From: Bacteroidales bacterium
GTDB lineage: Bacteria; Bacteroidota; Bacteroidia; Bacteroidales; UBA12170
Assembly: GCA_027858955.1 (NCBI GenBank)
Contig: JAQIBR010000204.1
Span: 1-44,950, forward strand
Reading direction: 5' to 3'
DNA: 44,950 nucleotides
In this document: positions 182 through 26,170 of the stretch, in pieces
Position numbering within the stretch: the stretch's first letter is position 1
Layout of the letters: each line of letters starts with the position of its first letter
Program-made: the position numbers and the translations under genes
The notes under the pieces: generated by a model
The model's database searches: none
What the model was told of the DNA's origin: nothing
What the model saw: only the letters and a program-made list of their open reading frames with translations

Positions 182-196
182 CAGTCTGTGTGAAAA
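182..196 (+). repeat. Left terminal inverted repeat of the split IS
   Basis: CAGTCTGTGTGAAAA reads into the element. The partner CAGGCTGTGTGAAAA at 25485-25499 also reads into its half; 14 of 15 bases match. Immediately outside both repeats are similar arms (AAAAATCCCG, then CCTT), so the repeat could be regarded as longer. The downstream position after rplI favours terminator arms over IS sequence. Confidence 0.8.
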
Positions 197-1215
197 CGCT
201 AGTAATTATTGTTAATTGCAAAAAATGTAACATATAGTATGTTAAATATCAGCATTATATCAATTATTTTGTTAACTTTAGATCACCATCAAAACTGAGA
301 TAAATGCATTTTAAAGAACAACAAAGCAGGGAACAAATAATGATGGTATCTTACGATACTATGGTTGCAGCAGACAACCCTGTCAGGCTCATTGATTTAA
401 TGTGTAAGAAGTTTATAGCAGATAATCCTTGGTGAGAAGAATGGAAAGGCAAGGAGCAAATAGGCAGGAAAAGTTATCCGCCTTCTATTATGTTAAGTTT
501 GTTAGTTTATGGTTATTTTAATGGAATATCTAGTAGTCGAAAACTAGAAGCGGAAACTTATCGTAACCTTGAAGTACTTTGGCTTATGGAAAGCTTGCAA
601 CCTGACCATTGGACTATTTGTGAATTTCGCAGGAACAACAAACAACTTATTAAAGATTTGCTAAAAAGTTTCCGTAGATTTTTAATTGATGAGGGGTTTG
701 CCTCAGGAGAAAAGCTTGTTTTTGATGGTTCAAAAATGAAAGCTTATGCAAGTCGTGATATGTTTAATTCCGAAGGCATCCGTAAGAAACTGGAAAATTT
801 GGACAAGTCTATTGCAGAATTTTTATCACAAATAGAAAGCAACGATACGCAGGACGAAGACATGAAAATGGCCTGTGATGAAATAAAACAGTTAAAAGAG
901 AAGATAACCAAGCTGGAAAAGCTAAAAATGAAATTTGAATTCACAGGCAAGGTCCTGAAAACCTGTAATAAAAAACAAATTTCACCAAATGATAAAGCTG
1001 CGGTATTGGTTTTGGGAAGGGATGGTAAATTTGCAGGTTATAATGCACTAGCAGGTACTGAAAGCAAGGGGCATTTCATTATGCACAACGAAATAACCAC
1101 AGATACTAATGACCTTCATCAATTGAAAAATTGTGTTGATAAGGTTGTCGAAGAAATTAACATTACCCCAAAAGAGGTGCTTGCAGACAAAGGATTCGGT
1201 AATATGGAACATATC
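182..1215 (+). mobile_element. Left half of an IS1182-family insertion sequence
   Basis: The element begins with the terminal repeat CAGTCTGTGTGAAAA at 182-196 and carries the N-terminal two thirds of a transposase. It stops abruptly at GAACATATC (1207-1215), about 20 bp before the tRNA-Leu terminator. The missing right half is present in opposite orientation at 25485-26170. Together the two pieces make a 1.71-kb element, in the usual size range for this family. No right terminal repeat exists next to this half, so it cannot move by itself. Confidence 0.85.
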
Positions 1216-1221
1216 TGTTGA
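304..1221 (+). pseudogene. IS1182-family transposase, N-terminal fragment (broken)
   Basis: Reading from ATG 304, the frame is interrupted by TGA at 433-435 (codon 44). It continues with typical IS1182 sequence from ATG 490 (LLVYGYFNGISSSRKLE) and carries the first catalytic Asp in VFDGSKMKAYAS. A coiled-coil-like charged segment follows, then the second catalytic Asp in VLADKGFGNMEH. The homologous sequence ends at codons GAA CAT ATC (1207-1215); the next codons, TGT TGA, are foreign flank. The third catalytic residue (Glu) and the Cys-rich part are missing here and occur at 25622-26170. With a stop and a truncation, the product cannot be an active transposase. Family assignment is from motif recognition. 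Confidence 0.88.
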
Positions 1222-1236
1222 AATGCCTATAAAAAC

Positions 1237-1266
1237 AAAAAAGCTTCGAGTTTCCTCGAAGCTTTT
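1237..1266 (-). terminator. Terminator of tRNA-Leu
   Basis: This is a 12-bp perfect stem (AAAAGCTTCGAG at 1239-1250, loop TTTC, CTCGAAGCTTTT at 1255-1266). Read on the minus strand it directly follows the tRNA 3' end and ends in a T-run. It lies between the tRNA and the IS breakpoint. Confidence 0.85.
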
Positions 1267-1267
1267 G

Positions 1268-1351
1268 TGCCCAGAACAAGAGTCGAACTTGCACACCCAT
1301 ACGGGCACCAGCCCCTCAAGCTGGCGCGTCTACCAATTTCGCCATCTGGGC
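1268..1351 (-). tRNA. tRNA-Leu (anticodon GAG)
   Basis: On the minus strand the acceptor GCCCAGA pairs with TCTGGGC over 7 bp. The D-loop contains AAATTGGTAGAC. The anticodon stem CCAGC/GCTGG holds the loop TTGAGGG, giving anticodon GAG, which reads CUC and CUU. A long variable arm (class II, as expected for Leu) and the T-loop GTTCGACTC follow. The discriminator is A and no CCA is encoded. Its 3' side faces the breakpoint of the broken IS. Confidence 0.95.
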
Positions 1352-1580
1352 TTCATTATCATTACCCCTATTTGGACGGAGCTCATTCCGATAAAATCGG
1401 AATTGGGTTCGCCACCTGAGTTTATTTTTTCAGCAAGAAAGTCAGTCTTTTCTATGAAGAGAAACGTCTTTTTTTGCACTGCAAATCTATAAATTTTTTC
1501 ATTCAGAAAAGGGAAAACTAAATTATTCTTACTTTTGAGCGCTTAGTTATTAATCATTATCAATATAATTGAAAGAACAT
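1352..1580. other. Intergenic region with a hairpin and the promoter for the DUF4301 gene
   Basis: An 8-bp perfect hairpin (ATTCCGAT, loop AAA, ATCGGAAT) lies at 1385-1403 upstream of tRNA-Leu. A Bacteroidota -7 element TACTTTTG at 1530-1537 precedes the next gene by about 45 bp; I see no clear TTG at the expected -33 distance. Confidence 0.5.
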
Positions 1581-3125
1581 ATGTTTAGCCAAAAAGACAT
1601 TGCACAGATTGAAGCTAAAGGCATGAATCTGAAACAGGTTGAGGATCAAATTAAAAATTTTAAATCGGCCTTCCCTTTTATTAAACTAAAAGCTGCCGCA
1701 ACTCCTGGAAAAGGACTTAAGACTTTTAACAAAAAAAATGTGCAAGAATTAATTGCTAACTATTCTGAAGCTATTGAAGATAAATCATTAATCAAATTTG
1801 TACCTGCTTCAGGTGCAGCTTCTCGAATGTTTAAGCATTTGTTTGAATTTCGCGAAGAACTACAAGCTGGTAAGGCTAAAGATTTGCCTGACGATAATGG
1901 ATTCAATTCTGTATCCTATTTTTTCGAGCATCTTGAAGAATTTGCATTTTATTCCGATCTAAAGGAAAAATTGGTAGAGAAAAGCATTAATCTATTAGAA
2001 AAACTTGAACAAAAAGAATACCTCTGCATTTTGAACAATCTGCTGGATACAGATGGTCTGGAATATGCATCCTTGCCAAAAGGCTTGCTTAAATTTCATT
2101 CCTATGATGATGATGGAAATCGCTTAGCTATTGAAGAACATTTGGTTGAAGGAGCCGTATATGGAAAAAATGATAAGAATAAAGTGAATCTGCATTTTAC
2201 TGTTTCGCCCGAACACCTTGCAAAATTTGAAAAAGCCATTGACCAAAAAAAATACAAATATGCTGAACATTTTAATGTGGAATTTCTCATTAAATTTTCA
2301 CAACAAAAACCTTCAACAGATACCATTTCTGTAGATTTAAATAATGAACCCTTTCGCGAAAAAGATGGCTCAATCCTATTTCGTCCGGGTGGACATGGTG
2401 CTTTGATTGAAAATCTGAATGATTTAGGTGCCGAAATAATTTTTATTAAAAACATCGACAATATAGTTCCCGATAAGCATCGTCAACCTACATATGATTA
2501 TAAAAAGCTGATTAGTAGCTATTTGATCGAAATTCAAGATGCAATTTTCGATTACTTGGAATCACTTGAGATTGGCAATTTTGATGAAGACTTTTTGAAT
2601 GAGATTTTCGATTTTATGGAAAACACTCTTTTTATCAAAGTACCAAAATATATTCGTTCTAAAGAGCTTATGGAACAGGTAGACTGGGCCTTTCAAATGT
2701 TAAATCGGCCTATTCGTGTGTGTGGTATGGTAAAAAATGAAGGTGAAACTGGTGGTGGACCATTTTTAGTTGAAGATGATAACGGAATGGAATCATTGCA
2801 AATAGTGGAATCCTCTCAAATTGATTTTTCCGATCAAACACAAGCTGATATAGTAAAAAATGCAACCCATTTTAATCCAGTCGATTTAGTTTGTGGGATT
2901 TATGATTACAAAGGAGATAAATTTGATTTGAAAGAATTTGTTGATCCAAAAACAGGGTTTATTTCTGTAAAATCGAAAAACGGAAAAAATCTTAAAGCAC
3001 AAGAATTACCAGGACTTTGGAACGGAGCTATGGCGGATTGGATTAGTATTTTTGTTGAAGTTCCAATTGATACCTTTAATCCTGTGAAAATTATTAATGA
3101 CCTTTTGAGACCGATGCATCAGTAA
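1581..3125 (+). CDS. DUF4301 family protein
   Basis: This is a 514-residue protein I recognise as the Bacteroidota-specific DUF4301 family, which has a nucleotidyltransferase-like look but no established reaction. Visible motifs are FVPASGAASRMFKHLFEF near residue 70, FRPGGHGALIENLNDL near residue 270 followed by IFIKNIDNIVPD (like the metal/sugar-binding parts of sugar-phosphate nucleotidyltransferases), and GMVKNEGETGGGPF near residue 380. I chose ATG 1581 over an in-frame TTG at 1569; both lie downstream of the TACTTTTG promoter element at 1530. There is no signal peptide, so it is probably cytosolic. The gene stands alone and is followed by a REP-like hairpin. Confidence 0.85.
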   Translation: MFSQKDIAQIEAKGMNLKQVEDQIKNFKSAFPFIKLKAAATPGKGLKTFNKKNVQELIANYSEAIEDKSLIKFVPASGAASRMFKHLFEFREELQAGKAKDLPDDNGFNSVSYFFEHLEEFAFYSDLKEKLVEKSINLLEKLEQKEYLCILNNLLDTDGLEYASLPKGLLKFHSYDDDGNRLAIEEHLVEGAVYGKNDKNKVNLHFTVSPEHLAKFEKAIDQKKYKYAEHFNVEFLIKFSQQKPSTDTISVDLNNEPFREKDGSILFRPGGHGALIENLNDLGAEIIFIKNIDNIVPDKHRQPTYDYKKLISSYLIEIQDAIFDYLESLEIGNFDEDFLNEIFDFMENTLFIKVPKYIRSKELMEQVDWAFQMLNRPIRVCGMVKNEGETGGGPFLVEDDNGMESLQIVESSQIDFSDQTQADIVKNATHFNPVDLVCGIYDYKGDKFDLKEFVDPKTGFISVKSKNGKNLKAQELPGLWNGAMADWISIFVEVPIDTFNPVKIINDLLRPMHQ

Positions 3126-3162
3126 ATAGCAGGGACACAGACCCAACGATGGTTAAAACCTT

Positions 3163-3193
3163 ACCCTACGAGGGTTTTGAACCCTCGTAGGGT
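3163..3193. repeat. REP-like palindrome, left copy
   Basis: The stem ACCCTACGAGGGTT (3163-3176) has loop TTG and its full complement at 3180-3193, 14 bp perfect. The same palindrome recurs at 3828-3858, on the other side of the decayed transposase gene. Both copies continue with TATAG on the right. Confidence 0.88.
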
Positions 3194-3207
3194 TATAGAT
3201 AAAACAA

Positions 3208-3809
3208 ATGGCAGATACAAAAAACCCATTGGAAGCGGATTATAGTTATCATGTTTATAATCGCGCTGTTGGTAATGAGTTGCTTTTTAAAACGGAAGAA
3301 AATTATTCTTTTTTCTTAATAGACTTAAAAAGTATTTATCACAGTTTGTTGATATTTATGCTTACTGCCTAATCCCAAATCACTTTCATCTGATAATAAG
3401 AGTTAAAAGTGAAAGAGAAGTTCTTAATGTTTACCAACAAATTAAAAATGAAAGAATAGGCAAAAAATTAACTAAAGAAAACTCTGTTCTCGTACCTAAA
3501 ATTATTTCTTTACAATTCTCCCACTTTTTCAATAGCTATGCTCAAGCATTCAATAAAGAAAATCATAGAAAAGGAAGCCTTTTTTCTAATAGATATAAAA
3601 GAATACAAATTCGAGATGAAGAGTATTTGAAAAGACTCATTATTTATATTCATAAAAATCCTGTTAGCCATGGTTTAGTAGATAAACCTAATGAATGGGG
3701 ATTTTCATCATACAATACAATTAATTCAGAAAAAGAATCAATATTAATTAGAAGTGAAGTAATTGAATTATTTGATGATTTAGAGAATTTTAATTTTTGT
3801 CATTTATAG
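3208..3809 (+). pseudogene. REP-associated tyrosine (Y1/HUH) transposase, frameshifted
   Basis: Translation starts at ATG 3208 (MADTKNPLEADYSYHVYNRA, the normal N-terminus of this family) and hits TAA at about 3370. The remaining protein continues in the -1 frame from about 3330: the HUH metal motif in PNHFHLIIRV, then FSHFFNSYAQAFNKENHRKGSLF, and the tyrosine helix YIHKNPVSHGL, ending LENFNFCHL. The join falls in the A-run 3327-3331, consistent with loss of a single A. Intact length would be about 200 residues, normal for the family. The enzyme nicks and joins single-stranded DNA at REP hairpins. This copy is most likely dead. Confidence 0.85.
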
Positions 3810-3827
3810 ATTAATAAAGTGTCCAGT

Positions 3828-3858
3828 ACCCTACGAGGGTTTGAAACCCTCGTAGGGT
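3828..3858. repeat. REP-like palindrome, right copy
   Basis: The stem ACCCTACGAGGGTTT (3828-3842) and its full complement (3844-3858) enclose a tight turn. It matches the left copy at 3163-3193 except in the loop. It also lies 27 bp beyond the end of xdhA on the minus strand and could serve as that gene's transcript end. Confidence 0.88.
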
Positions 3859-3884
3859 TATAGTTGAAGACGTTCGTAAAGCAG

Positions 3885-5345
3885 CTATATTTCAAGGGTA
3901 AAAAGATAAAACTTCAGCAACAAATTCTTCGCTAAAAGTTTACGCCCATCTGCTTCGGCGCGGGCATCAGAAATTGGAGTAAATTCATCTTTTAGAATTT
4001 CCATAGCTTCTTCAATAACATATTTTTCCCATGGCTTTCCCAAAAGAAATTCTTCGGTTTGATATGCTCGATAAGTAATAGCTGCCATTCCACCAAATGC
4101 TAAAACTATACTTTGTACTTTTTGGTCTTTAGTTAACTTTAATGCAAATCCGGCGCAAACAGTTGAAATATCCAAATCTCGACGCTTCGAAACTTTTTCA
4201 GACCAAATTATCTGATTTTCATCACTTGGCAAAATCACTTTTGTAATAATTTCTTCAGGCATCAGGCTAGTTTTATGATAGCCTAACAAATAATCTTTAA
4301 GCTTTTCGGTACGTCTTTCATCAACACTTTCAATCAATAGCTCTGCCTGATGTGCCATTAAAACAGGCAAAGTATCACCAATAGGTGAGCCTGAGCCTAA
4401 ATTACCACCAAGAGTGGCTACATTCCTAATTTGTTGAGAACCAAATACATCAAGCATTTTTTTAAAAGAAGAAAACTTATTTCCAAAAGCTTCTCGTAAT
4501 TGCTCAATTGAAACTCCTGCTCCTATCTCCCAATAACCATCTTTTTTTTCAATGCTTTGTAATTCTTTTATTTTCGACAAATCCAGTAAATGAGGCAAAT
4601 CCTGATACTTTTTTGTTTTTAATAATGCCAAATCGGAGGCTCCACCTATTAACATAGACTCAGGGTAATCTTTTTTATATTCCAAAGCTTGTGATAATTG
4701 ACGTGGTTGGTAATAAACTTCTTTTTCGCGGTCAATTAAAAAATTGCTTAATTTGGCATCTATTTCTTTCAAATCTCTAATATTCTTTTCTTTCAATAAA
4801 GAAAATTTATCATCTTTTGGAAGATCTTTAAACAAATATGCAGCATCTAGGATTGATTGGTAACCAGTACAACGGCATAAATTTCCACTTAGCGCCTGCT
4901 CAACATCTTCTCTATCAGGACTTTTTACTGTTTTATACAAATTGAACATCGACATAACAAAACCTGGAGTACAATATCCACATTGACTTCCATTTGTTTT
5001 TACCAAAGCCTCCTGAACAGGATGCAATTTAGTTTCTCCATTTTGCTTGTCCGATAAATATTCAACAGTAAAGAGCTGTTTACCATTTAAATAAGGCAAG
5101 AATACTATGCAAGATGTGATAGTTTTATAAAATAATTCATCATCAGCTCCTAATTCTGCAATTACTAAAGTACAAGCACCACAATCGCCTTCGGCACAAC
5201 CTTCTTTTACGCCTTTATATTTCGCGTGATCGCGGACATAATTCAAAACTGTTGTCGTAGGGCTTAAGGTTTTTTGAGAGCGAAAATCGATCGTTCTGAG
5301 CTCTTCGTTCAATAGAAACTGTATAATTGAGTTATTTTGTTCCAT
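3885..5345 (-). CDS. xdhA: Xanthine dehydrogenase-type small subunit (2Fe-2S and FAD domains)
   Basis: This 486-residue protein fuses the two electron-transfer domains of a molybdenum hydroxylase. The plant-type [2Fe-2S] site is GCAEGDCGACTLV near residue 55. The second cluster is formed by QCGYCTPGF and GNLCRCTGY near residues 120-160. The FAD domain follows from about residue 210, with GGASDLALLKTKK and NVATLGGNLGSGSPIGDTLP. Its role is to pass electrons from a molybdopterin subunit to FAD and NAD. I start at ATG 5345, which overlaps the xdhC stop by one base (TGATG); the upstream TTG is less likely. The catalytic molybdenum subunit normally encoded next to it is absent here, where a palindrome and a decayed transposase follow instead. 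Confidence 0.88.
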   Translation of the reverse strand: MEQNNSIIQFLLNEELRTIDFRSQKTLSPTTTVLNYVRDHAKYKGVKEGCAEGDCGACTLVIAELGADDELFYKTITSCIVFLPYLNGKQLFTVEYLSDKQNGETKLHPVQEALVKTNGSQCGYCTPGFVMSMFNLYKTVKSPDREDVEQALSGNLCRCTGYQSILDAAYLFKDLPKDDKFSLLKEKNIRDLKEIDAKLSNFLIDREKEVYYQPRQLSQALEYKKDYPESMLIGGASDLALLKTKKYQDLPHLLDLSKIKELQSIEKKDGYWEIGAGVSIEQLREAFGNKFSSFKKMLDVFGSQQIRNVATLGGNLGSGSPIGDTLPVLMAHQAELLIESVDERRTEKLKDYLLGYHKTSLMPEEIITKVILPSDENQIIWSEKVSKRRDLDISTVCAGFALKLTKDQKVQSIVLAFGGMAAITYRAYQTEEFLLGKPWEKYVIEEAMEILKDEFTPISDARAEADGRKLLAKNLLLKFYLFTLEI

Positions 5346-6115: not shown

Positions 6116-6225
6116 ATTCAGTGTTTGCTTGATTTATCAAATAGTTCGAATGAACAAAGTTAGAAAATAAATCTATTTAATAAGCTCCCGAATTTTCTGC
6201 TAATTTTGTGCAACAATACATTTAA

Positions 6226-7092: not shown

Positions 7093-7120
7093 AAAAAGCC
7101 CGAACCTATGATTCGGGCTT
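7091..7120 (-). terminator. Terminator between prmC and the phosphate transporter
   Basis: The stem AAGCCCGAA/TTCGGGCTT has loop CCTATGA. The run of seven A on the left gives a T-run on the minus strand, so it best fits termination of the transporter gene; it may also stop prmC read-through. Confidence 0.85.
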
Positions 7121-7137
7121 CTGAGAAATTAAATTAA

Positions 7138-9417
7138 TCAATCTTTTGGTTTACACATTTTTGCATCAATTGCTAAATCGCGCTGTGCTTTTATTAAACT
7201 CACGCTGTGCAAGAGTAAAGTTTTACTTTCACCCATAATATCAAGGAAAAGTTTTGCATTTCGTTTACCGGATTTAGGCTTAGTTAAGCGCTTTATTTGC
7301 GCTTTTGTATATCCATCAATATCCTTTATGATAACAAGTTCCTTAGCCAATAATTGTTCAAGCTTTTCAAAATCAGATTCCCGTACAATAGTCTCAGCAT
7401 CCGATAAGAAATCGTTTAAAGAGTTATGAAGCTGATGAATATCGATCATCTGAAGCTCACCCACAGGCTTGTGATTATTATCAACGTGAGCCAAACTGGG
7501 ATCAACCATAAAGCTGGCAGAACGGGCTATTTCCCTTAAGAAATCGAGCGATTGCGAATAAAAATGAGCAGAATTAATTGATTCGTTATCAAGCTTTCTT
7601 ACAACCACTTGAATATTATCTTTAAGCTCTTTAGATCGTGCTGTAAATGCTTTGACTTTTTTACGGGCTTTTTTTAAGACTTTAATATCTTCTGTTTCTA
7701 AGCCATTAAAAGTTACGCCAACAATTTCATTAACTATACTAAACGATTCCGAAATTATTCTGCTATTACTATGGAAAATATCTAGCAAATTAAGCTGTTC
7801 TTTATCATTAATATCTATTTCCTTTTCTTCAGTTACTTTTTCTTTTTTAGAAACTATCAGCGTACGCATAATAAAATAGATTCCTATTCCAATAAATGCC
7901 AGTATAGCAATAAATCCGCCCCAATGAATAATAAGAGCCACACTAAAAGCGGCAGTAAAAGCGGCAAATGCGGTAAAGAACCAACCCAAAATAACTGATA
8001 TAACGCCAGTTATTCTAAATACGGCGCTTTCTCGCCCCCATGCTCTATCAGCTAATGAAGTCCCCATTGCAACCATAAATGTAACATAAGTAGTTGATAA
8101 TGGTAATTTTAAAGAAGTACCAATTGATATCAAAATTCCAGCAACCACTAAGTTAATCGAAGCTCGTATCATATCAAAGGCAGGTCTTTCTTCCAATGGG
8201 ATAGCAAGCTCTTCTGCACGCATAGAATCAAATTGTTGATCTATCTTATTAAGCACAGCATTAGGAACAACAGATTTTAATCTATTATTAAACGAAATTG
8301 CCCCACGAACCACGCTTTTAGAAAACTGACTTGAACCAAAACGTTCTTCACCTTCTGATTGGCGACTTAAGTCGACGGAAGTTTTGATTACTCTCCTCGC
8401 CTTTTTAGAAAAATATAAAGTAACAACCATTATCAAACCTGCAATCAATAAAAAGTATACAGGTGTTTGAACCTTTCCCGCCAAGCCTGCCATCATAAAT
8501 GCATTTGGATCGGCACCGGGATCAGCTATGAATATTTTAAACGATTCGTAGCCCGCCAAAGGAACTCCGATAAAGTTTACTAAATCGTTACCCGCAAAAG
8601 CCATTGCCAAGGCAAAAGTTCCTACAAAAACAATAAATTTAGGAATGTTCAATTTGAAAATCCAAGTAAACAATTGCATAATGATTGTCCAAGCAATAAA
8701 AGTAAAAATAAGAAGAAGTAAAGTATTCTCCTTCACCCATTCTGTGATAGAAAGGCCACTCCCTAATTCGTAATCAGAAAAGCTTGATCCTTTAATTCCT
8801 TTAATTAGTATAAAGTAAGTAATCGCTGTAATGGCAAAACCGCCCCAGACAGAGCCATAATATTTAATGCTTTTAGTAAATTTAAAAGAGAAAATCAATC
8901 GACTTATCCATTGAATAATAGCTCCGGCAAAAAAAGCGACAAAAACAGAGAGGAGAATACCGAAAATTATACCCAATGCCTTTGATGAGTTGATATAATC
9001 GGATACTTCGCCAACACCTGACGACATTACTTTAACCAATGCAATGGCAACTGAAGCTCCTAAAAGTTCAAATACAATAGATACCGTGGTGGAAGTAGGA
9101 AGCCCGTAACTGTTAAATCTATCGAGCAAAATCACATCTGTAACCATTACTGCAAAAAAGATGATCATGATCTCAGAAAAGTAGAACATGTTTGGATGAA
9201 AAATTCCTTTACGTGCTATTTCCATCATTCCGCTTGAAAAGGTAGCTCCAACAAAAACACCGAGAGCGGCGATAAGTATAATGATTTTGAAGTTAGCCGC
9301 TTTAGACCCAATAGCTGAGTTTAAAAAGTTAACGGCATCATTACTTACCCCAACAATTAAATCGCTAATTGCTAATGCGAATAAGGCTACAACTATTATT
9401 AAATAGATATTTTCCAT
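7138..9417 (-). CDS. PiT-family inorganic phosphate transporter with C-terminal PhoU-like domain
   Basis: This 759-residue inner-membrane protein belongs to the PHO4/PiT family of cation-coupled phosphate carriers. The duplicated family signature is present as GVSNDAVNFLNSAIGSKAA (about residues 23-41) and GNDLVNFIGVPLAG (about 272-285). Many hydrophobic segments occupy residues 1-510. A hydrophilic tail of about 230 residues (after KKEKVTEEKEIDINDKEQ) is predicted helical and resembles PhoU-like or DUF47 regulatory domains often fused or adjacent to PiT carriers. The protein is longer than the classical 400-500 residue PiT because of a large central loop and this tail. The gene is monocistronic. 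Substrate other than phosphate is possible but less likely. Confidence 0.88.
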   Translation of the reverse strand: MENIYLIIVVALFALAISDLIVGVSNDAVNFLNSAIGSKAANFKIIILIAALGVFVGATFSSGMMEIARKGIFHPNMFYFSEIMIIFFAVMVTDVILLDRFNSYGLPTSTTVSIVFELLGASVAIALVKVMSSGVGEVSDYINSSKALGIIFGILLSVFVAFFAGAIIQWISRLIFSFKFTKSIKYYGSVWGGFAITAITYFILIKGIKGSSFSDYELGSGLSITEWVKENTLLLLIFTFIAWTIIMQLFTWIFKLNIPKFIVFVGTFALAMAFAGNDLVNFIGVPLAGYESFKIFIADPGADPNAFMMAGLAGKVQTPVYFLLIAGLIMVVTLYFSKKARRVIKTSVDLSRQSEGEERFGSSQFSKSVVRGAISFNNRLKSVVPNAVLNKIDQQFDSMRAEELAIPLEERPAFDMIRASINLVVAGILISIGTSLKLPLSTTYVTFMVAMGTSLADRAWGRESAVFRITGVISVILGWFFTAFAAFTAAFSVALIIHWGGFIAILAFIGIGIYFIMRTLIVSKKEKVTEEKEIDINDKEQLNLLDIFHSNSRIISESFSIVNEIVGVTFNGLETEDIKVLKKARKKVKAFTARSKELKDNIQVVVRKLDNESINSAHFYSQSLDFLREIARSASFMVDPSLAHVDNNHKPVGELQMIDIHQLHNSLNDFLSDAETIVRESDFEKLEQLLAKELVIIKDIDGYTKAQIKRLTKPKSGKRNAKLFLDIMGESKTLLLHSVSLIKAQRDLAIDAKMCKPKD

Positions 9418-9566
9418 TCTCGATTAAATTTTGTGCAATTTACGTTTATTAATCAAAGGTATAAAAACATATTAAAGTTAAACTTATGTTTCTTTAATAT
9501 TAATTTATTGTTAATTCCTTTTTAACTTATAAAATAATCGTTTAGAGCTGCTACCGCGAATTTGTT

Positions 9567-14407: not shown

Positions 14408-14420
14408 ATTCGCTAAAAAA

Positions 14421-16455: not shown

Positions 16456-16561
16456 GCTTTTTTTTACTTTTTCCGATAAATCGTCAATTATATCTTTATA
16501 AATCAAATACACGAATATGTGTTATGCTGATATAAAATTATATTTACCGAAATTTTTGAAT

Positions 16562-17314
16562 ATGAATTTTAAAAAAATCTCCCGTAAAACCCATCGCTAT
16601 ATGGGTTTGATAATTGGCATTCAATTTCTGTTTTGGACTTTAGGAGGATTGTACTTTAGCTGGACAAATATTGAAGAAATTAGAGGAAATACTCTAAAAA
16701 AATCAGATTCTTTCTTTTCTAAGGATCTGCAAATTACAGATATAAACATTCATATTGATAGTCTAAAGCAGGCTGGAATACTTGACTCCATTAAAAATAT
16801 AGAATTAACTCAGCTTCTTGATCAGCCACATATGCTGATTACTTATTTCACATTGAAAAATAAAAAAGTTAGCGAAGAAAGACTTCTTATCGATCTTAGA
16901 ACCAATAGTGCTATAAATGAAATTGCTGCTAAACTTGCTACTAAAATCGCCCAAAATAGTTTGATAAAACCTGTAGAAGTTTCATCAACTAAACTTCTTC
17001 TGGAAGAAGATGTGAATAATCATCACGAATTTAGAGGCGGTGTTTTCCCTGCTTATGCTGTTCAATTTAATACTAAAAATAAGCTTGTCATTTATATAGA
17101 TGCAAAGAGTGGTGAATTATTAAATTATAGAACACAAAATTGGAGAATTTTTGATTTCTTATGGATGATGCATACCATGGATTACGCTGGAAGAGATAAT
17201 CTTAACAATTGGATTCTACGAACTTTTTCAGTATTAGGTCTAATTACTATTTTTTCCGGATTTATCTTATACATGAACTCAAGTAGAATGTTTAGGAAAA
17301 AGAAATTGGTTTAA
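16562..17314 (+). CDS. PepSY domain membrane protein
   Basis: This 250-residue membrane protein belongs to the PepSY-associated TM group. A first transmembrane segment lies at about residues 17-38 (MGLIIGIQFLFWTLGGLYFSW) after a basic N-terminus. A PepSY-like extracytoplasmic region (YAVQFNTKNKLVIYIDAKSGELL, about 160-183) comes next, and a last helix near 220-240 (FSVLGLITIFSGFILYM). Conserved His residues (RKTHRYMG; WMMHTMDYAGRDNLNNW) recall the heme- or iron-reductase-like PepSY_TM proteins. ATG 16562 gives the expected N-terminus; the upstream ATG 16517 adds 15 atypical residues. Its 3' end overlaps the convergent MBL gene by 4 bp. Exact role unknown. Confidence 0.75.
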   Translation: MNFKKISRKTHRYMGLIIGIQFLFWTLGGLYFSWTNIEEIRGNTLKKSDSFFSKDLQITDINIHIDSLKQAGILDSIKNIELTQLLDQPHMLITYFTLKNKKVSEERLLIDLRTNSAINEIAAKLATKIAQNSLIKPVEVSSTKLLLEEDVNNHHEFRGGVFPAYAVQFNTKNKLVIYIDAKSGELLNYRTQNWRIFDFLWMMHTMDYAGRDNLNNWILRTFSVLGLITIFSGFILYMNSSRMFRKKKLV

Positions 17315-18411: not shown

Positions 18412-18509
18412 TAGTTAAGATTGGAATGCAAATCTATCAATTAAATATTTAAAGCCTACTTATACAATACAGGTCGAAATATTTTTATATTTGTTTAACA
18501 AAATAAACC

Positions 18510-19697
18510 ATGAAAAAATCGATCATCTTTCTTTTTTCCATTTTCTTTAGTATTGGAATATTTGCTCAGGTAATTATACGAACCAAATCAAATCTTCCGG
18601 AAATAAGTGATATCATTGCCGTTTTAGATGATGCAACAGGCTGGGTATTACAAGATAACGGAAGTTGGCTAAGCGCAAAAAACAAAATTTTACATTTTAG
18701 TTCTGAGCAAAATCTGAATGCAGATGAAATGCTTAAACTTGGTCGACAGAATTTCCAACAACTTGAACTTCGCGAAGTTTTAGTTGGGGATGAACAATAC
18801 GCTATTTTAATATTTAAATATGCAGGTGGATTTTTTGAATTTCCAGTTCTCCGCCAAAATTTCCATAGTAATGAAAATGCACTTTATATAGTTTTTCCCG
18901 CTAAAAAACTCAATAAGATTTTATCGCTTGCAAACGATTATAATGAGCCTCTGGCAGTTAATCTAGATGTATTTTGTTCGGGCGATATTATCAATTACGA
19001 TGCTAAATTATTATCAACACAAATTGCATATAATATTTCACGTGTTGACAAAATGGAAGAACCTTCTCAATTCACTATGATTTTAGCTGTTATGCCAACA
19101 ATTGTCAATGGAGAGAAATTATTCCGTTTTAGATATATAAATGTGTTTAATCAGGAAAGTCTTTACAGAAAATATTTACTTCCTGCTAATAAAAACAAAC
19201 ATTTTAAAAGTAGCTATTTTGAAGTTCCTTATCAGCATTTTATCGACTTCTTTGGAGCTCTAACCGTACAAAAAACAAACTTTAATATTCTAGAACCAAT
19301 CAATTTTAACGACTTTTATAAACGAGGAGTACTTCGTTATGAACGAGAGAATTATGAAGGTGCTTTAAACGATTTTAGAGCAGCACTTAGGCAAAAACCT
19401 GATACTGATTTTTGGCCATTATATGCTTTAATGGGTAGTACACATCATCAACTCAAAAATTACAATTCTGCAATAAGATCATTTGAAAAAGCCATAATAT
19501 TAGGACCAAAAGATACTGATCAAAAACAGACTTGGATCAGAAATTATTATAACCTTGGTCTTTCACATTTAATGCTCAACAATAAAGCCGACGCCTGTAG
19601 CAACTTTCAAAAAGCAAAATCTGGAGGTTTGGCAGATGATGAGGCGATTAAAGTGATTAGGAAAAATTGTAAAGGGAAATACAAGGTAAAAAAATAA
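18510..19697 (+). CDS. Exported TPR-repeat protein
   Basis: This 395-residue protein has a signal peptide (KKSIIFLFSIFFSIGIFAQ, cleavage after about residue 20). The N-terminal 260 residues are not recognised. The C-terminus (about 280-375) contains three tetratricopeptide-like units: FYKRGVLRYERENYEGALND, YALMGSTHHQLKNYNSAIRS and YYNLGLSHLMLNNKADACSN. TPRs mediate protein-protein contacts, so a periplasmic scaffold role is likely. A TATATTTG -7 element at 18486-18493 sits 16 bp before ATG. It precedes a barrel/SPOR-like protein on the same strand, 142 bp apart. Confidence 0.75.
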   Translation: MKKSIIFLFSIFFSIGIFAQVIIRTKSNLPEISDIIAVLDDATGWVLQDNGSWLSAKNKILHFSSEQNLNADEMLKLGRQNFQQLELREVLVGDEQYAILIFKYAGGFFEFPVLRQNFHSNENALYIVFPAKKLNKILSLANDYNEPLAVNLDVFCSGDIINYDAKLLSTQIAYNISRVDKMEEPSQFTMILAVMPTIVNGEKLFRFRYINVFNQESLYRKYLLPANKNKHFKSSYFEVPYQHFIDFFGALTVQKTNFNILEPINFNDFYKRGVLRYERENYEGALNDFRAALRQKPDTDFWPLYALMGSTHHQLKNYNSAIRSFEKAIILGPKDTDQKQTWIRNYYNLGLSHLMLNNKADACSNFQKAKSGGLADDEAIKVIRKNCKGKYKVKK

Positions 19698-19839
19698 CTA
19701 CCCTAGTCTGACTATATCCTATTTTAATTAACACTCTTTTGTTTATACATCTACCTTACTCCTTATTATTGCATAATATATTTAATTATTTTTGATACAT
19801 TGACATAAAATTATGCCAAGGGCTGAGAATTTGCATTAA

Positions 19840-21768
19840 GTGAAGAAACTATTATTACATAAAATATTAATTATCATACTTTTACTCGGAAGTATACAAA
19901 TCGCTTTTGCTCAAAAGTCGACAAAAATAAAAGACATCAACAATAAGTGGTTTGTTGGAATTAATGGAGGTGTAAATATGTTTTGGGGTGATATTAAATT
20001 CAATCCATTTTGGCCATCACCCAAAATGCAAGAACTCCAAATAGGAGGAGGTCTGGTTTTTGGTCGAAGCTTAAGTCAAAGTTTTAAAATAAGTTCTGAA
20101 TTATATTTTACATCTCTACGCGGATTACAAGAAGTTTATCCAGATACTCTGGGATTTAAAACACAAGCATTATCGTTCGCATTAAAAGGGCATTTTAACA
20201 TAATCAGTCTGTTTACTAAAAAGGACACTAAATTTGATTTATTTATAGAAAGTGGGGCGGGAATTATTGCCTGGAGAAGCCTTTTGCAAAATCATCTTAC
20301 TAACGATACTCTGAACGATTTGGGCTGGTCAAATTCAGATTATGAATTTAGTTATTATATTCCAGCCGGAATAAAATTTGAATATCAGATTAGTCCTAAA
20401 CTTTCCACACACTTTACTAGCAGCTACAATTTCGTATTTAGCGATCTACTGGATGGAGAAGCAATTGGAAGCTATGATAATTTTAGCTATAATTCACTGG
20501 GTATCAACTATCATTTTGGGAAGCAAAAAACAATTCCAAAACTATTGCCATATAGTTTTTTTAAAATTACATACGATAGTTTAACTTCTCTAACAAGCAA
20601 AAACGAAAACCCGCCAAAAAAGGCCAAGGAAACAAAAGAAGTTATCAATCCTTTTTCCGTAACGATTGATGTCCCCGAACAGGCATCACATACTGGATTC
20701 GATATTGGTATTAACATTACGAAATTAGGCATTCCTGCCAGTGGCTTTTTCCGTTTGCTTGTTCCTAGCGGATTTCTGCCCCAGTCAACACCTAATGATG
20801 ATATAAGTTTCACTAAACTTGGTTATCGTTATGATTACGATTTCATTTTGCCTTTGAATCAGGATAAAACTTCTATCCCTATTCACATAAAATTGAGCGA
20901 GATAGAAAAAGGTATATTCCCCATTTTAGTTGAAGGAGAAATTATAGATCAAAACGGAAATGTTTTCCCTATTAAGTTTGCATCTTATATCGAAATTATT
21001 TCTGAAGAAGGATGGAATAAAGGCTTGCCTATTCATGATCAGACAAAACCTGACTCTAAATATGAGATAAAAGATTCAACTAAAACCATTAAAGCAGAAA
21101 AGAATAATCAGATAATCCAAAAAGATATTTCAAGTGTTGCACTGCCTATCGAATCCAAAGATATTGAGCCACAAAAACAAAATGAATCACATATTGGAAT
21201 ATACCGCATTCAATTTATGGCGAGCCAAAAACCTTATACCAATCTGGAAAGTTTTAAGGCAAAACATAAAATTACTGATGAAATATTTATTTCGCAGGCA
21301 GATGGGTGGTATCGCTACAACCTCTATGCTGCTGAATACCGTAATGAAGCAATTCAATTATGCTTAAAAGTTAGAAATGAAAACGATATCCCGCAAGCTT
21401 TTATTACTTATTATGAAAATGGGAAACGGGTACTCTCGCCAAATGCCAAGAAAGCTGATCAAACATCTTCAACTTTAAAAGAAGCATCTTCTAAAAACAC
21501 AAATATTTCAAATAATAAATTACTTTATAGAATAGAGATTGCTATTGGTTTTGAAAAACCTATTCCACTTTATCTTTTGCAAAAGAAAGTAGGGAAAGAA
21601 CCAATCAGCGAGTTCAAACATAAGCTTAATTATTATTATACTATAGGGGAATTTGAAAATTTAGAAGTAGCTCGTGCATTTTTAGTCTATGTAAAAACAC
21701 AATTCCCATTAGGAAACGCCAAAATTGGCCAATATCAGAATAACCAACGTATTAAAGTCGTGCTTTAA
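19840..21768 (+). CDS. Outer-membrane beta-barrel protein with two C-terminal SPOR-like repeats
   Basis: This 642-residue protein starts with GTG at 19840 and a signal peptide (IIILLLGSIQIAFAQ). Residues about 35-225 resemble an outer-membrane beta-barrel domain (WFVGINGGVNMFWGDIKFN; many alternating aromatic strands ending SLGINYHFG). A middle beta-rich region of about 180 residues follows. The C-terminus holds two SPOR-like repeats of about 75 residues each (YRIQFMASQKPYTNLESF ... DGWYRYNLYAAEYRNEA, and YRIEIAIGFEKPIPLYLL ... NYYYTIGEFENLEVA). SPOR domains bind denuded septal peptidoglycan, so this could link the outer membrane to the wall. The arrangement is inferred from pattern only. Confidence 0.65.
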   Translation: MKKLLLHKILIIILLLGSIQIAFAQKSTKIKDINNKWFVGINGGVNMFWGDIKFNPFWPSPKMQELQIGGGLVFGRSLSQSFKISSELYFTSLRGLQEVYPDTLGFKTQALSFALKGHFNIISLFTKKDTKFDLFIESGAGIIAWRSLLQNHLTNDTLNDLGWSNSDYEFSYYIPAGIKFEYQISPKLSTHFTSSYNFVFSDLLDGEAIGSYDNFSYNSLGINYHFGKQKTIPKLLPYSFFKITYDSLTSLTSKNENPPKKAKETKEVINPFSVTIDVPEQASHTGFDIGINITKLGIPASGFFRLLVPSGFLPQSTPNDDISFTKLGYRYDYDFILPLNQDKTSIPIHIKLSEIEKGIFPILVEGEIIDQNGNVFPIKFASYIEIISEEGWNKGLPIHDQTKPDSKYEIKDSTKTIKAEKNNQIIQKDISSVALPIESKDIEPQKQNESHIGIYRIQFMASQKPYTNLESFKAKHKITDEIFISQADGWYRYNLYAAEYRNEAIQLCLKVRNENDIPQAFITYYENGKRVLSPNAKKADQTSSTLKEASSKNTNISNNKLLYRIEIAIGFEKPIPLYLLQKKVGKEPISEFKHKLNYYYTIGEFENLEVARAFLVYVKTQFPLGNAKIGQYQNNQRIKVVL

Positions 21769-21839
21769 GCTAATTTGCAAACATATTTTCAGTTAAATAA
21801 CAGAATTCAAAAATAATCTTGTAAAAAACAAATCAATGT

Positions 21840-21869
21840 TTGCTAATTCGCAATTTTGTATTAATTTTG
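21840..21869 (+). promoter_or_regulatory. Promoter of rpsT
   Basis: TTG at 21840-21842 and TAATTTTG at 21862-21869 are spaced by 19 bp. The sequence continues CAGCCCAAAA, nearly identical to the rpsO promoter start region. ATG follows 48 bp after the -7 element. Confidence 0.8.
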
Positions 21870-21917
21870 CAGCCCAAAATACAGGAATAGAAATCGAACT
21901 TAATAAAAATATAAAGT

Positions 21918-22172
21918 ATGGCGAATCATAAATCGGCAATTAAAAGAATCAGACAAGCTGAATCACACAGATTAAGAAACAGGTATTTCGCTCGCAGTAT
22001 GCGTAACGCTATCAAACAATTAAAAAGCTTGACAGACAAAGCAGAAGCTGCTGTTAAATTACCTTCGGTAATGTCTATAATTGACAAAAACGCAAAACGT
22101 TCGATTATTCACAAGAATAAAGCCGGCAATCTGAAATCAAAATTAACTAAAGGCATTAATACTTTAGCCTAA
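21918..22172 (+). CDS. rpsT: 30S ribosomal protein S20
   Basis: This 84-residue bS20 is a basic, all-helical primary binder of 16S rRNA. It shows the standard start [22 protein letters not shown] and a C-terminal [20 protein letters not shown]. It has its own promoter and terminator. Confidence 0.97.
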
Positions 22173-22195
22173 TTTTTAGTAAAATATTTTACTTG

Positions 22196-22226
22196 AGCCA
22201 TCTGTCATTTGACGGATGGCTTTTTT
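22196..22226 (+). terminator. rpsT terminator
   Basis: AGCCATCTGTC and GACGGATGGCT form the stem (one T-G pair) with a short ATTT loop, followed by six T. Confidence 0.88.
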
Positions 22227-22305
22227 GTTGATTTTAGTATAATCATTGATTATCTTTGGATTACAATATTCTTATCAAGAAAGCATTCCCTCAAAAGATA
22301 ATCCT

Positions 22306-23004
22306 ATGAACTACTCCACAGGAAAAAGCATTAAACATTGGGCAGAAGAAGATCGCCCTCGCGAAAAATTAATTTTAAAAGGCAAATCGAGCTTAAGCAA
22401 TGCCGAAATATTGGCTATCCTAATTGGCTCTGGCAATCGCGACGAATCAGCTGTTGAACTTTCACAAAGGATTTTAAGCAGCAGCAACAACAATTTAAAC
22501 ACTCTTTCATTACTTAGTGTAAACGATTTAAAAAAGTTTAAAGGCGTCGGGGAGGCTAAAGCGATAAATATCATTGCAGCACTTGAATTGGGTAGGCGAA
22601 GACGCTCTAGCGAAGCGCTGGAACAAAAAAGCATAACTTCTAGTCGAGATGCATTTGAATTACTATATGCCGATTTAGCCGATCAATCTTTTGAAGAGTT
22701 TTGGATTATTCTTTTAAAACGCAACAATCAAATTATTAGCAAAAGAAGGATTTCCGAAGGTGGCCTGGCAGGTACCGTAGCCGATCCAAAAAAAATATTC
22801 AAAATGGCACTCGATGCTCAGGCAAGTTCTATCATTCTTTGTCATAATCACCCCTCGGGAAATCTAAAACCAAGCGATCAAGACAAACAACTCACCCGCA
22901 AAATTGTGCAAGCAGGCAAAACACTTGAAATTGCCGTTCTTGATCATTTGATTTTTGGTAATGAAAATTATTTCAGCTTTGCCGATGAAAATTTGCTTAG
23001 TTAG
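22306..23004 (+). CDS. radC: RadC/JAB-domain protein
   Basis: This 232-residue protein is full length for RadC. An N-terminal helix-hairpin-helix-like part (KSSLSNAEILAILIGSGNRDESAVELSQRIL ... LKKFKGVGEAKAINIIAALELG; residues quoted in two parts) precedes a JAB/MPN metalloprotease-like domain with HNHPSGNLKPSDQD (about 185-198). The old link with DNA repair is not supported by later work and the function is unresolved. ATG 22306 gives the normal start MNYSTGKSIKHWAEEDRPREK; the upstream TTG at 22246 does not. It lies between rpsT and the epimerase. Confidence 0.93.
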   Translation: MNYSTGKSIKHWAEEDRPREKLILKGKSSLSNAEILAILIGSGNRDESAVELSQRILSSSNNNLNTLSLLSVNDLKKFKGVGEAKAINIIAALELGRRRRSSEALEQKSITSSRDAFELLYADLADQSFEEFWIILLKRNNQIISKRRISEGGLAGTVADPKKIFKMALDAQASSIILCHNHPSGNLKPSDQDKQLTRKIVQAGKTLEIAVLDHLIFGNENYFSFADENLLS

Positions 23005-23054
23005 TGAGTCATCTATTTTCGCTAAATTCGCAGCAATAATTCTACACTTATTCC

Positions 23055-24197
23055 ATGCGCAAAATAATAACTATCGTGGGTGCCCGACCTCAAATTATTA
23101 AAGCTGCCGCTTTAAGTCGAGCTTTTAAAATGCATCCTAAATTTAAAGAAATCATTGTTCATACGGGTCAACATTACGATTTTAATATGTCGGAGGTGTT
23201 TTTTGAAGAACTAAACATTCCAAAACCGAATTATCAGTTTGAAATTCAAGGTGGTGAACAAGGAAATCAAACGGCACAAATGCTTGTAAATATTGAAAAA
23301 GTATTGCTCGATGAAAAACCAGACTTAGTTGTTGTTTATGGAGATACTAACTCCACACTTGCCGGTGCCTTGGCTGCATCTAAGCTGCAAATCCCTGTTG
23401 TGCACATTGAAGCCGGAATGAGATCGTTTAATAAAGCGATGCCTGAAGAGGTAAATCGTATTATTACAGATCATTGTTCAACTTTACTTTTTAGTCCAAC
23501 AAAAACAGGAATCAAGAATTTAGAAAAGGAAGGATTCTCAGTTAAACATATTGGTCATATTTCAATCGATAATCCATTAGTTTATCATTGTGGCGATATA
23601 ATGTTGGATAATAGTTTATATTTCTCAACTATTGCAGCTCAAAAATCTAAAATTCTTACTCAACATAAACTTGAAAAGAATAGATTTATTTTGAGTACTG
23701 TTCATCGCAATACAACCACCGATGATCCAATACGTTTAACATCATTAATAGAAAGCTTATTAAATTTGGCGACTAAGCATAACGAAACGATAGTTTTCCC
23801 GCTGCATCCTCGCACACTAAAACAATTAAATCTAAATCAATCTAAAGAACTTTATCAGCGACTTCAGGCTACTAAAAACATTTTACTTACCGAGCCGCTT
23901 ACATATTTGGATATGATTCAATTGGAGCAAAATGCTAAACTCATTCTTACCGATTCTGGTGGAGTTCAAAAAGAAGCCTTTTATTTTCAGAAACCATGCA
24001 TAATTGCTCGCCCCGAGACAGAATGGGAAGAATTGGTAGAGTTAAAAACAGCAATACTTTGCGACGTAGAAAAGCAGAAGATAGAAGCTGCATACCTTTC
24101 ATTTATTAGCAATCCTCCACAGAATTATCCGCCAATTTTTGGCCATGGAAAAGCGGCGGAATTTATTGCAGAAGAAATTGTCAAATTCCTTTCTTAA
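23055..24197 (+). CDS. wecB: UDP-N-acetylglucosamine 2-epimerase (non-hydrolysing)
   Basis: This 380-residue enzyme interconverts UDP-GlcNAc and UDP-ManNAc for surface polysaccharide synthesis. Motifs are VGARPQIIKAAALSRAF (about residues 8-24), HTGQHYDFNMSEVFFEEL, VVVYGDTNSTLAGALAA, HIEAGMRSFNKAMPEEVNR (about 115-135), STVHRNTT and LTDSGGVQKEAFYFQKP (about 300). Length and motifs are those of the GT-B fold epimerases. The symbol reflects the family; it is not in a visible polysaccharide cluster. Confidence 0.93.
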   Translation: MRKIITIVGARPQIIKAAALSRAFKMHPKFKEIIVHTGQHYDFNMSEVFFEELNIPKPNYQFEIQGGEQGNQTAQMLVNIEKVLLDEKPDLVVVYGDTNSTLAGALAASKLQIPVVHIEAGMRSFNKAMPEEVNRIITDHCSTLLFSPTKTGIKNLEKEGFSVKHIGHISIDNPLVYHCGDIMLDNSLYFSTIAAQKSKILTQHKLEKNRFILSTVHRNTTTDDPIRLTSLIESLLNLATKHNETIVFPLHPRTLKQLNLNQSKELYQRLQATKNILLTEPLTYLDMIQLEQNAKLILTDSGGVQKEAFYFQKPCIIARPETEWEELVELKTAILCDVEKQKIEAAYLSFISNPPQNYPPIFGHGKAAEFIAEEIVKFLS

Positions 24198-24234
24198 GCC
24201 ACTCTGTATCAATAAAATTAATCTTTTTAATTGT

Positions 24235-24264
24235 TTGATATTTAGCTAAATCTTTATATCTTTG
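24235..24264 (+). promoter_or_regulatory. Promoter of the rpsF-rpsR-rplI operon
   Basis: TTG at 24235-24237 and TATCTTTG at 24257-24264 have 19-bp spacing. The start region CCGCCCAA again resembles the CAGCCC found at rpsO and rpsT. The leader to rpsF is about 70 nt. Confidence 0.8.
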
Positions 24265-24339
24265 CCGCCCAATTTGACGAGTAAATATCTACTTGTCTGT
24301 GGATCAATAAATTAATTATTAAAATAAAAATTTTACACA

Positions 24340-24696
24340 ATGGTTAAACAGTACGAAACCGTTTTCATTATGACTCCCGTTTTATCTGTCGAACAGATGA
24401 AGGAAGCGGTAAATAAGTATCGTGATCTCCTAAAGGAGTATGGTGCTGAGGTTGTCCATGAGGAAGAGTGGGGTTTGAGAAAACTCGCTTATCCTATTCA
24501 AAAAAAATCTACAGGATTCTATCAATTATTGGAATACCGTATGGAAGGCGAGCACATTCGCAATTTTGAAATCGCGTATAAACGCGACGAACGCATTCTT
24601 CGTTTCTTAACAGTAGCTTTGGACAAACATGCCATTGCATATAACGAAAAGAAAAGAAAAATGAAAAAAGGCGAATCAGAAGTTAAAGCAAATTAA
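24340..24696 (+). CDS. rpsF: 30S ribosomal protein S6
   Basis: This 118-residue bS6 forms a heterodimer with S18 on the 30S platform. It begins MVKQYETVFIMTPVLSVEQM and contains EWGLRKLAYPIQKKSTGFYQLLEY. The C-terminal tail is very basic (EKKRKMKKGESEVKAN). First gene of the three-gene operon; 21 bp to rpsR. Confidence 0.97.
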   Translation: MVKQYETVFIMTPVLSVEQMKEAVNKYRDLLKEYGAEVVHEEEWGLRKLAYPIQKKSTGFYQLLEYRMEGEHIRNFEIAYKRDERILRFLTVALDKHAIAYNEKKRKMKKGESEVKAN

Positions 24697-24717
24697 TAAC
24701 ATTAAAAAAATTTAACA

Positions 24718-24984
24718 ATGGCTCAAAATTCAGATATTAAATATCTTACCCCAATTGCGGTAGATACCAAAAAGAAAAAATATTGCCGTTTCAAGAAAAG
24801 CGGAATCAAATTTATCGATTATAAAGACGCAAACTTTTTGCTGAAATTCGTAAACGAACAAGGTAAACTTTTACCACGTCGTTTAACTGGTACTTCAACT
24901 AAATATCAGAAAAAAGTAGCTCAAGCAGTTAAGAGAGCTCGTCATATAGCATTAATGCCATATGTTGGCGATTTATTAAAATAA
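24718..24984 (+). CDS. rpsR: 30S ribosomal protein S18
   Basis: This 88-residue bS18 has the conserved core [30 protein letters not shown] (in two parts: [19 protein letters not shown] and [16 protein letters not shown]) followed by [13 protein letters not shown]. It partners S6. In Bacteroidota S18, S6 and S21 are known to help hold the 16S 3' end, which makes the strong Shine-Dalgarno at its own end notable. It is 13 bp from rplI. Confidence 0.97.
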
Positions 24985-24992
24985 AAGGAGGT
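24985..24992 (+). promoter_or_regulatory. Perfect Shine-Dalgarno sequence before rplI
   Basis: AAGGAGGT is fully complementary to the standard 16S rRNA 3' tail. The GGAGG core ends 6 nt before ATG 24998, an ideal spacing. No other gene start inspected in this window has a comparable site, and the phylum generally does not use them. It starts at the last A of the rpsR stop region. Confidence 0.85.
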
Positions 24993-24997
24993 AACCG

Positions 24998-25450
24998 ATG
25001 CAAATTATTTTAAAGAAAGATGTCCAGAATTTAGGATATATAGATGATATACTGGAAGTTAAAGACGGTTACGCACGTAACTATTTAATTCCTCAAGGTT
25101 TTGCAATTGCAGCCAACGACAGCAATAAAAAAATCCTATCAGAAGTAAGAAAGCAGCGTGCTTTTAAGATCGATAAGATCAGAAACGAAGCCTCTGCCGA
25201 AGCTAAATTATTAGATGGTTTAACCGTAAAAATTGCTACTAAAGCAGCAGCTTCTGGCAAAATATATGGTTCTGTAAATGCTATTCAAATTGCAGAAGCA
25301 ATTAAAGAACAGCATAATTATGATGTTGATCGCAAGAAAATTACTATTGAAGGCGAAACTATCAAAGAAGTGGGAACTTATAAAGCAACCGCTCAACTTT
25401 ATAAAGACATTGTCGCGGAAATAACTTTTGAAGTTGTTACCGAAGAATAA
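24998..25450 (+). CDS. rplI: 50S ribosomal protein L9
   Basis: This 150-residue bL9 has the N-terminal rRNA-binding domain (MQIILKKDVQNLGYIDDILEVKDGYARNYLIPQGFA, signature GYARNYLIP at about 24-32). A long connecting helix and a C-terminal domain (ASGKIYGSVNAIQIAEAI) follow. Last gene of the operon, preceded by an unusually strong Shine-Dalgarno. The terminator expected after it appears to be split by the IS right end. Confidence 0.97.
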   Translation: MQIILKKDVQNLGYIDDILEVKDGYARNYLIPQGFAIAANDSNKKILSEVRKQRAFKIDKIRNEASAEAKLLDGLTVKIATKAAASGKIYGSVNAIQIAEAIKEQHNYDVDRKKITIEGETIKEVGTYKATAQLYKDIVAEITFEVVTEE

Positions 25451-25466
25451 GTCTGGCAAACAGAAT

Positions 25467-25484
25467 AAAAATCCCGTTCCTTAA
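25467..25484 (+). terminator. Half of the rplI terminator, interrupted by the IS end
   Basis: AAAAATCCCG, TT and CCTTAA begin 17 bp after the rplI stop, where a terminator is expected, but no complementary arm follows. The sequence enters the IS terminal repeat instead. The missing arm is supplied by 165-181 if that flank is inverted: 10 bp of AAAAATCCCG/CGGGATTTTT plus CC/GG around a TTTAA loop. Confidence 0.7.
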
Positions 25485-25499
25485 CAGGCTGTGTGAAAA
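25485..25499 (+). repeat. Right terminal inverted repeat of the split IS
   Basis: CAGGCTGTGTGAAAA matches the left repeat at 182-196 at 14 of 15 positions. Both read inwards. Confidence 0.8.
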
Positions 25500-25621
25500 T
25501 TATGTTTTTAAATCTATTTTAAATCAATCTAAATTTTCGTATAAATTTCATTTTTTAAAATTATAGAGTTCCATCTTCTTTCTTTTAAAGATTGACAAAA
25601 AAATGGATTTATGGCCATTTT

Positions 25622-26170
25622 TCATGCTAACGTCCAACTATATTTCATCATTTTATCTATCAATTTAGTGTTTATCTCACTGTTTATCAGTCTTTTTATA
25701 TTGTAAGCAGTTGTGTAGAGATCGAATTCGATTTGAGCTTTTTCTTTCCCCGTTAGCAAGAAGTTGAACTTTCCCATTAGCCATTCTATAGTCCCGAATG
25801 GATGCTCTACAATTCCTTTGCGTTCAGCAATCCTTTCTTTCGAATATTGGGTCGTAAGTTTTTGCTTGTATTGTTCTATTTCATTCTGGTCTATATTCCT
25901 TTTATAAGTCCTACCTTTCTTTGAGCTTGTACAATTATTACGGATTGGGCATCCATCACATTCATTGCACTTATTAAAATCGTATGTTACCTTACGCTGT
26001 TTTTGACCCTTTGAAAAAAGGTGAAGCTTTTTTCCTTGTGGACAAGTGTATGTATCACTCATTTTGTCGTAACTGAAACTAATACCTTTTTCTTCTTCCT
26101 TTTCCCTAGAGGTTGTTGGAAGGGGTATATAACATTGAGCACCATTATTTTCTATGTTAAGGATATGTTC
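25622..26170 (-). pseudogene. IS1182-family transposase, C-terminal fragment (broken)
   Basis: From codons GAA CAT ATC at 26170-26162 the frame reads EHILNIENNGAQCYIPLP and continues to TAA at 25622. It includes the zinc-ribbon-like cysteines (TCPQGKK; NKCNECDGCPIRNNC) and the catalytic Glu in RKGIVEHPFGTIEWLMGKFNF. The C-terminus is TTAYNIKRLIN...MKYSWTLA. It lacks the first two catalytic Asp residues, which are in the left half at 304-1215. Joined at EHI the halves give a protein of 483 codons, apart from the TGA at 433. The open frame extends upstream through flank and tRNA-Ser, but that part is not transposase. Confidence 0.9.

Follow-up and report, generated by a model that had tools for sequence, protein, structure and literature searches.

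The question raised by this locus is how two fragments of a transposase gene, each carrying one terminal repeat, came to lie ∼25 kb apart on opposite strands. The window analysed here comprises contig C233 (44,950 bp) in full, from a draft assembly that totals 3.46 Mb in 273 contigs. An earlier note had read the fragments as one insertion sequence (IS) split by an inversion. It was found that 182–1215 (+) and 25485–26170 (–) are parts of one IS1182-family element. The best explanation, to which we give a probability of about 0.85, is that this single IS was broken once and that its halves now lie on opposite sides of an inverted block of ∼25 kb. The common origin of the halves, their one insertion site and their opposite orientation were read directly from the window and its relatives; that there was a single break, that recombination took place at a short stretch of chance microhomology and that the event took the form of an inversion, is what we infer from them. 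The features are collected in Table 1.

Table 1. Features of the window that bear on the divided IS
Feature	Position	Strand	Basis or remark
Dispersed repeat at contig edge	1..142	.	Matches to parts of 1-142 across the assembly
Distal (3') arm of rplI terminator, now outside left IS half	157..181	-	Search with 24-mer 157-180
Left half of IS1182-family element: inverted repeat and N-terminal transposase	182..1215	+	NF033551 58-327; PF05598; inverted repeat CAGTCTGTGTGAAAA
In-frame TGA, codon 44 of transposase frame	433..435	+	Pseudogene
GAACATATC, 9 bp common to both halves, left junction	1207..1215	+	Sequence
Spacer with tRNA-Leu terminator; left breakpoint 1215/1216	1216..1266	.	Match to G006
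tRNA-Leu (gag), end of displaced block	1267..1351	-	tRNA call
DUF4301 gene, adjoins tRNA-Leu(gag) also in 8 relatives	1569..3125	+	Comparison with relatives
rplI (ribosomal protein L9)	24998..25450	+	TIGR00158
Proximal (5') arm of rplI terminator, abuts right IS half	25467..25484	+	AAAAATCCCGTTCC resembles rplI terminators of close relatives
Right half of IS: C-terminal transposase and other inverted repeat	25485..26170	-	NF033551 326-486; PF13751
Second copy of GAACATATC, right junction	26162..26170	-	Sequence
tRNA-Ser (tga), first gene past right junction	26308..26395	-	tRNA call
Family-2 glycosyltransferase, beside tRNA-Ser(tga) also in G001, G005, G006 and G010	26623..27648	+	Comparison with relatives

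The coordinates and strands of the halves, their nine common bases and the match of their terminal inverted repeats at 14 of 15 positions (at 182 and 25485, ends CAG[T/G]CTGTGTGAAAA) were as the earlier note had described them. Inspection of the translations against the IS1182 transposase model NF033551 (488 positions) placed the left half on positions 58–327 (E 6e-46, 157 bits) and the right half on positions 326–486 (E 1e-36, 127 bits), each half alone falling below the whole-protein cut-off of 270 bits. This placement on adjoining parts of the model indicates that the transposase belongs to the IS1182 family. The halves were also compared with L018, an unbroken copy of 484 residues on a Prolixibacteraceae contig, with terminal inverted repeats matching at 14/14 positions. 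The left half aligned with its residues 1–304 (186/304 identical) and the right half, three shared residues included, with residues 302–483 (118/182 identical), which bore out the description of the two fragments as complementary halves of one IS. When the nine bases were counted once, the join was exact relative to L018, with no residue missing or extra; the fused element measures 1711 bp, the length previously given, and the fused frame comprises 484 codons including the stop. The proposed in-phase fusion to a 483-codon protein therefore stood as far as the join is concerned, but the frame is not open: because of the in-frame stop at codon 44 the fused frame is a pseudogene, and a 483-codon protein could be obtained only by read-through of this TGA. 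Given the stop codon and the split, the transposase is presumably dead.

The earlier note had suggested looking for an intact copy in the same genome. For the left half no second copy was found by DNA search of the same assembly; for the right half, the search returned its terminal portion alone, in two related sequences with ∼80% identity over 80–90 bp, each located at the end of a contig (C237 and C83), as well as 33 bp that match the left end of the window itself. The two contigs (L004 1–129 on C237, and the end of L005 on C83) both stop in the same IS1182-like right end, the body of which lies beyond the contig ends. Because two contig ends carry this ∼80% similar right end, the genome probably contains a related second IS with an unassembled body. 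A DUF772 match on C263 of the same genome was considered as an intact copy and rejected, since it is a distant relative with 32% identity. When the left half was searched as DNA in 60 genomes, two matched, namely its own genome and G014 (61 bp only). No match to the element was found in the plasmid records.

The strongest evidence in this analysis, which is independent of the transposase and was absent from the earlier reading, came from the outer flanks of the halves. The gene rplI is present in 10 of the 11 genus genomes, i.e. in this one and nine relatives. In the five nearest (G001, G004, G005, G006 and G010), the terminator after rplI reads AATCCCG[T/A]TCC-loop-AGGT[T/G]CGGGATTTTTTT; in the four most distant (G002, G003, G008 and G009) a different terminator, read by eye, follows. 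A 24-mer from the left flank (157–180) was searched at up to three mismatches in the 11 genus genomes. Four matches were obtained in total: the window itself and the rplI terminators of G001 (0 mismatches), G005 (2) and G010 (3), while the reversed control pattern gave no match in the same genomes at the same threshold. The 24-mer was thus found at the rplI terminator in three of the nine relatives with rplI, with more than three differences in the other six; among the latter, G004 and G006 lay beyond the three-mismatch limit, and G006 showed a looser match at the same place (51 bp, 84%). In its own genome the 24-mer had a single match at up to three mismatches, i.e. no second, intact terminator was detected. 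When the two arms are placed side by side, they fold into a terminator stem similar to the ones in the relatives. The joined arms gave a value of –31.2, which none of 1500 random partners reached (lowest random value –29.3), although this folding control is generous, since the distal arm as given contains a hairpin of its own, and the 24-mer search is the sounder test. The outer flanks of the halves together make up a single terminator, that of rplI, with one arm each, and were therefore once contiguous; the element has one insertion site. The link between the left edge and the rplI site spans ∼50 bp at most, because the contig edge is a dispersed repeat and the methyltransferase gene expected beyond it was not found in the genome's own assembly (best of four matches, 32% identity).

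With an rplI terminator arm on either outer side of the IS halves, the insertion lies in a hairpin. This was reminiscent of TnSha1, a transposon moved by IS1272 of the IS1182 family: TnSha1 is reported always to insert into hairpins, among them several confirmed terminators, and to do so without duplicating its target; the same behaviour is reported for IS1272 on its own (PMC4923244). These reports concern TnSha1 and IS1272, and hairpin insertion may not hold for the whole IS1182 family. L018 also sits between two hairpin arms. Taken with the reports on TnSha1 and IS1272, this makes insertion into a terminator ordinary for such elements.

The gene order in relatives was compared next to the block and to each of its edges, as the earlier note had advised. 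In G005 (C33) the order of the window is retained from tRNA-Leu as far as the gene at 19840, at which point the contig stops; in G010 (C160) it is retained from the gene at 7138 through to rplI; and in G001 (C22) from the DUF4301 gene through to the gene at 17311. The agreement is imperfect: the genes at 16517, 21918, 22246 and 23055 found no match in G010, the one at 23055 found none in G004, and G005 carries the gene at 7138 twice. In G006 the match to the window ends beyond the gene at 18510, and no single contig among those compared spans the whole block. These comparisons indicate that the block from tRNA-Leu to rplI is older than the rearrangement, with imperfect order and some genes missing in relatives. 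Since the block itself is old, it is its edges that were rejoined.

At the rplI edge, the genes that follow rplI correspond among G001, G004, G005 and G006, and in G001 and G006 reading of the translations named them as an RNA methyltransferase, sucD and mnmE. In G010, the 4.6 kb after rplI gave no match to the post-rplI genes of those four relatives. The window has the far terminator arm next to tRNA-Leu and the N-terminal IS half; rplI, accompanied by its near arm and by the C-terminal IS half, faces tRNA-Ser. At the other two edges, tRNA-Leu was beside tRNA-Ser in none of the stretches compared, whether in the eight relatives examined for tRNA-Leu flanks (356 bp in G003 and 8.2–9.6 kb in the other seven) or in the five with tRNA-Ser(tga) close to the glycosyltransferase gene, four of which have short outer flanks of 69–1185 bp before the contig end. 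The comparison thus upheld the window order in G005, G010 and G001 and the age of the block, but tRNA-Leu and tRNA-Ser were never found as neighbours. In G006 (C18; L073 10286–10814), 5S and 23S rRNA genes in convergent orientation come after tRNA-Ser(tga). Such rRNA genes may explain why the contigs of relatives end near this tRNA.

Outside tRNA-Leu, G001 and G005 have in common a fabI cluster, and in G001 genes read as nucleotidase-like and CDGSH-like lie between tRNA-Leu and fabI. In the genome studied here, the fabI, CDGSH-like and nucleotidase-like genes are on another contig, C272. There the nucleotidase-like gene precedes a truncated nuoN (L095, 2727–3632), which retains its C-terminal part, covering model positions 261–468 of 472. 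The truncation may reflect a further rearrangement breakpoint, decay of the gene or a contig that is chimeric. Because the fabI counterparts are on C272 beside truncated nuoN, at least one further change occurred at the tRNA-Leu edge, before, after or with the split.

The nine bases at the junctions were then considered. Within the window GAACATATC occurs twice, at 1207 and, inverted, at 26162, and nowhere else. The spacer beside tRNA-Leu could be recognized from G006, in which 1237–1298, a segment that includes tRNA bases, matches at tRNA-Leu with 92% over 64 columns. When the reconstructed spacer (197 bp) was put through 500 mononucleotide shuffles, tested in one orientation, 466 of them shared a word of at least 9 bp with the IS, so the microhomology needs no special cause. 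Even without GAACATATC, an inverted word of 11 bp is common to the spacer and the IS, and the idea that the 9 bp are something special was rejected on both counts. Nine bases in common are what can be expected from chance microhomology, and recombination at them would be in keeping with their position: GAACATATC would have stood by chance in the spacer between the tRNA genes, and recombination at the 9-bp inverted match would have left one copy on each side. A second transposon with a 9-bp target duplication at the junctions was also rejected, as the bases beyond GAACATATC differ (TGTTGAAATG versus TCCTAGAAAA) and no common element end is seen.

In its strictest form, the earlier note's account is exactly one simple inversion of 1216–26161, in which tRNA-Leu and tRNA-Ser were formerly convergent neighbours and recombined at the 9-bp inverted match. 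Two breaks would then account for the orientation, for the 9 bp and for the two junctions alike, and in a comparison of an IS of 1711 bp with a spacer ∼200 bp long a chance match of that length is expected. Against it, none of the relatives compared has the two tRNA genes side by side, and the fabI cluster, which lies outside tRNA-Leu in G001 and G005, is here on C272 beside truncated nuoN; another rearrangement therefore preceded, or there were three or more breaks. We consider this account to have slightly less than an even chance. It is a stricter form of the preferred explanation, and the odds of the two overlap. What the rplI terminator arms uphold in the earlier claim is one IS, one break and the opposite orientation of the halves, whereas the single two-break inversion was not established.

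It is unlikely that the junctions are absent from the cell and arose as a chimera of the assembly or library. The draft has 273 contigs, the overlap is 9 bp, and the contig end lies 181 bp from the left IS half. In addition, the left contig edge is a dispersed repeat: among the 40 of 62 candidates scored, at least 39 further matches to parts of 1–142 were found at E up to 10, at least 26 further matches were limited to ∼117–142 alone, and longer parts recur on C5 and C174. This repeat is a likely reason why the contig stops there. Tn5-based library cutting leaves nine shared bases at neighbouring fragment ends. On the other hand, a chimera would have to produce two reciprocal junctions in one contig and dominate the reads at both places, and assemblers as a rule do not join on 9 bp.

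Alternatively, though with quite a low probability, the nine bases might be the filled-in overhangs of one staggered, transposase-like 9-bp cut, rejoined to distant ends. If so, the event would have been transposition-like with no mobile element at either junction, so that only the rearrangement remains. Finally, two independent IS1182 copies, separately truncated and each in its own terminator, are highly improbable: the family is reported in terminator hairpins, so that separate flanks could both look like terminators (PMC4923244), but both flanks belong to the rplI terminator, the coverage is complementary without a gap, and no near-identical second copy of either half was found in DNA searches of the assembly, so the pair is read as one IS and, as the earlier note had argued, two unrelated truncated copies are not to be expected.

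The preferred explanation of one insertion and one break begins with an IS1182-family copy entering the rplI terminator hairpin, between rplI and, judging from the relatives, an RNA-methyltransferase gene. Possibly an earlier rearrangement first brought tRNA-Leu and tRNA-Ser together. A later illegitimate rearrangement would have broken the element once, at GAACATATC, joining the end of the N-terminal half beside tRNA-Leu and the end of the C-terminal half, still attached to rplI, beside tRNA-Ser. As a result, the block from tRNA-Leu to rplI (∼25 kb) would now be in reverse orientation with respect to the flank outside its own IS. However many further breaks there were, a single one within the IS accounts for both halves.

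Known biology is unchanged by this finding: it is not a new system but a clean and well-preserved scar, left by a rearrangement of an ordinary kind in an equally ordinary IS. The scar is unusually legible, with the element, its insertion site and its break point all still recognizable. The terminator arms provide transposase-independent evidence that two distant fragments were one insertion. In other draft genomes, matching outer flanks to the terminator of a relative could help to tell genuinely split elements from remnants that are unrelated.

The division of a single mobile element between two breakpoints is a general kind of rearrangement scar. Like other scars of this kind, the locus shows complementary halves in opposite orientation at both edges of a block. 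It is unlike recombination between two full IS copies, none of which was seen here, the match at the break being 9 bp. The element resembles the IS1182 family (NF033551; IS1272 and its TnSha1 of staphylococci) in its transposase, its short inverted repeats and its insertion into a terminator hairpin, as reported for TnSha1 and IS1272 (PMC4923244); the latter are described there as inserting bluntly, with loss of part of the stem. Unlike intact IS1182 members, the copy in the window is in two pieces and carries an in-frame stop.
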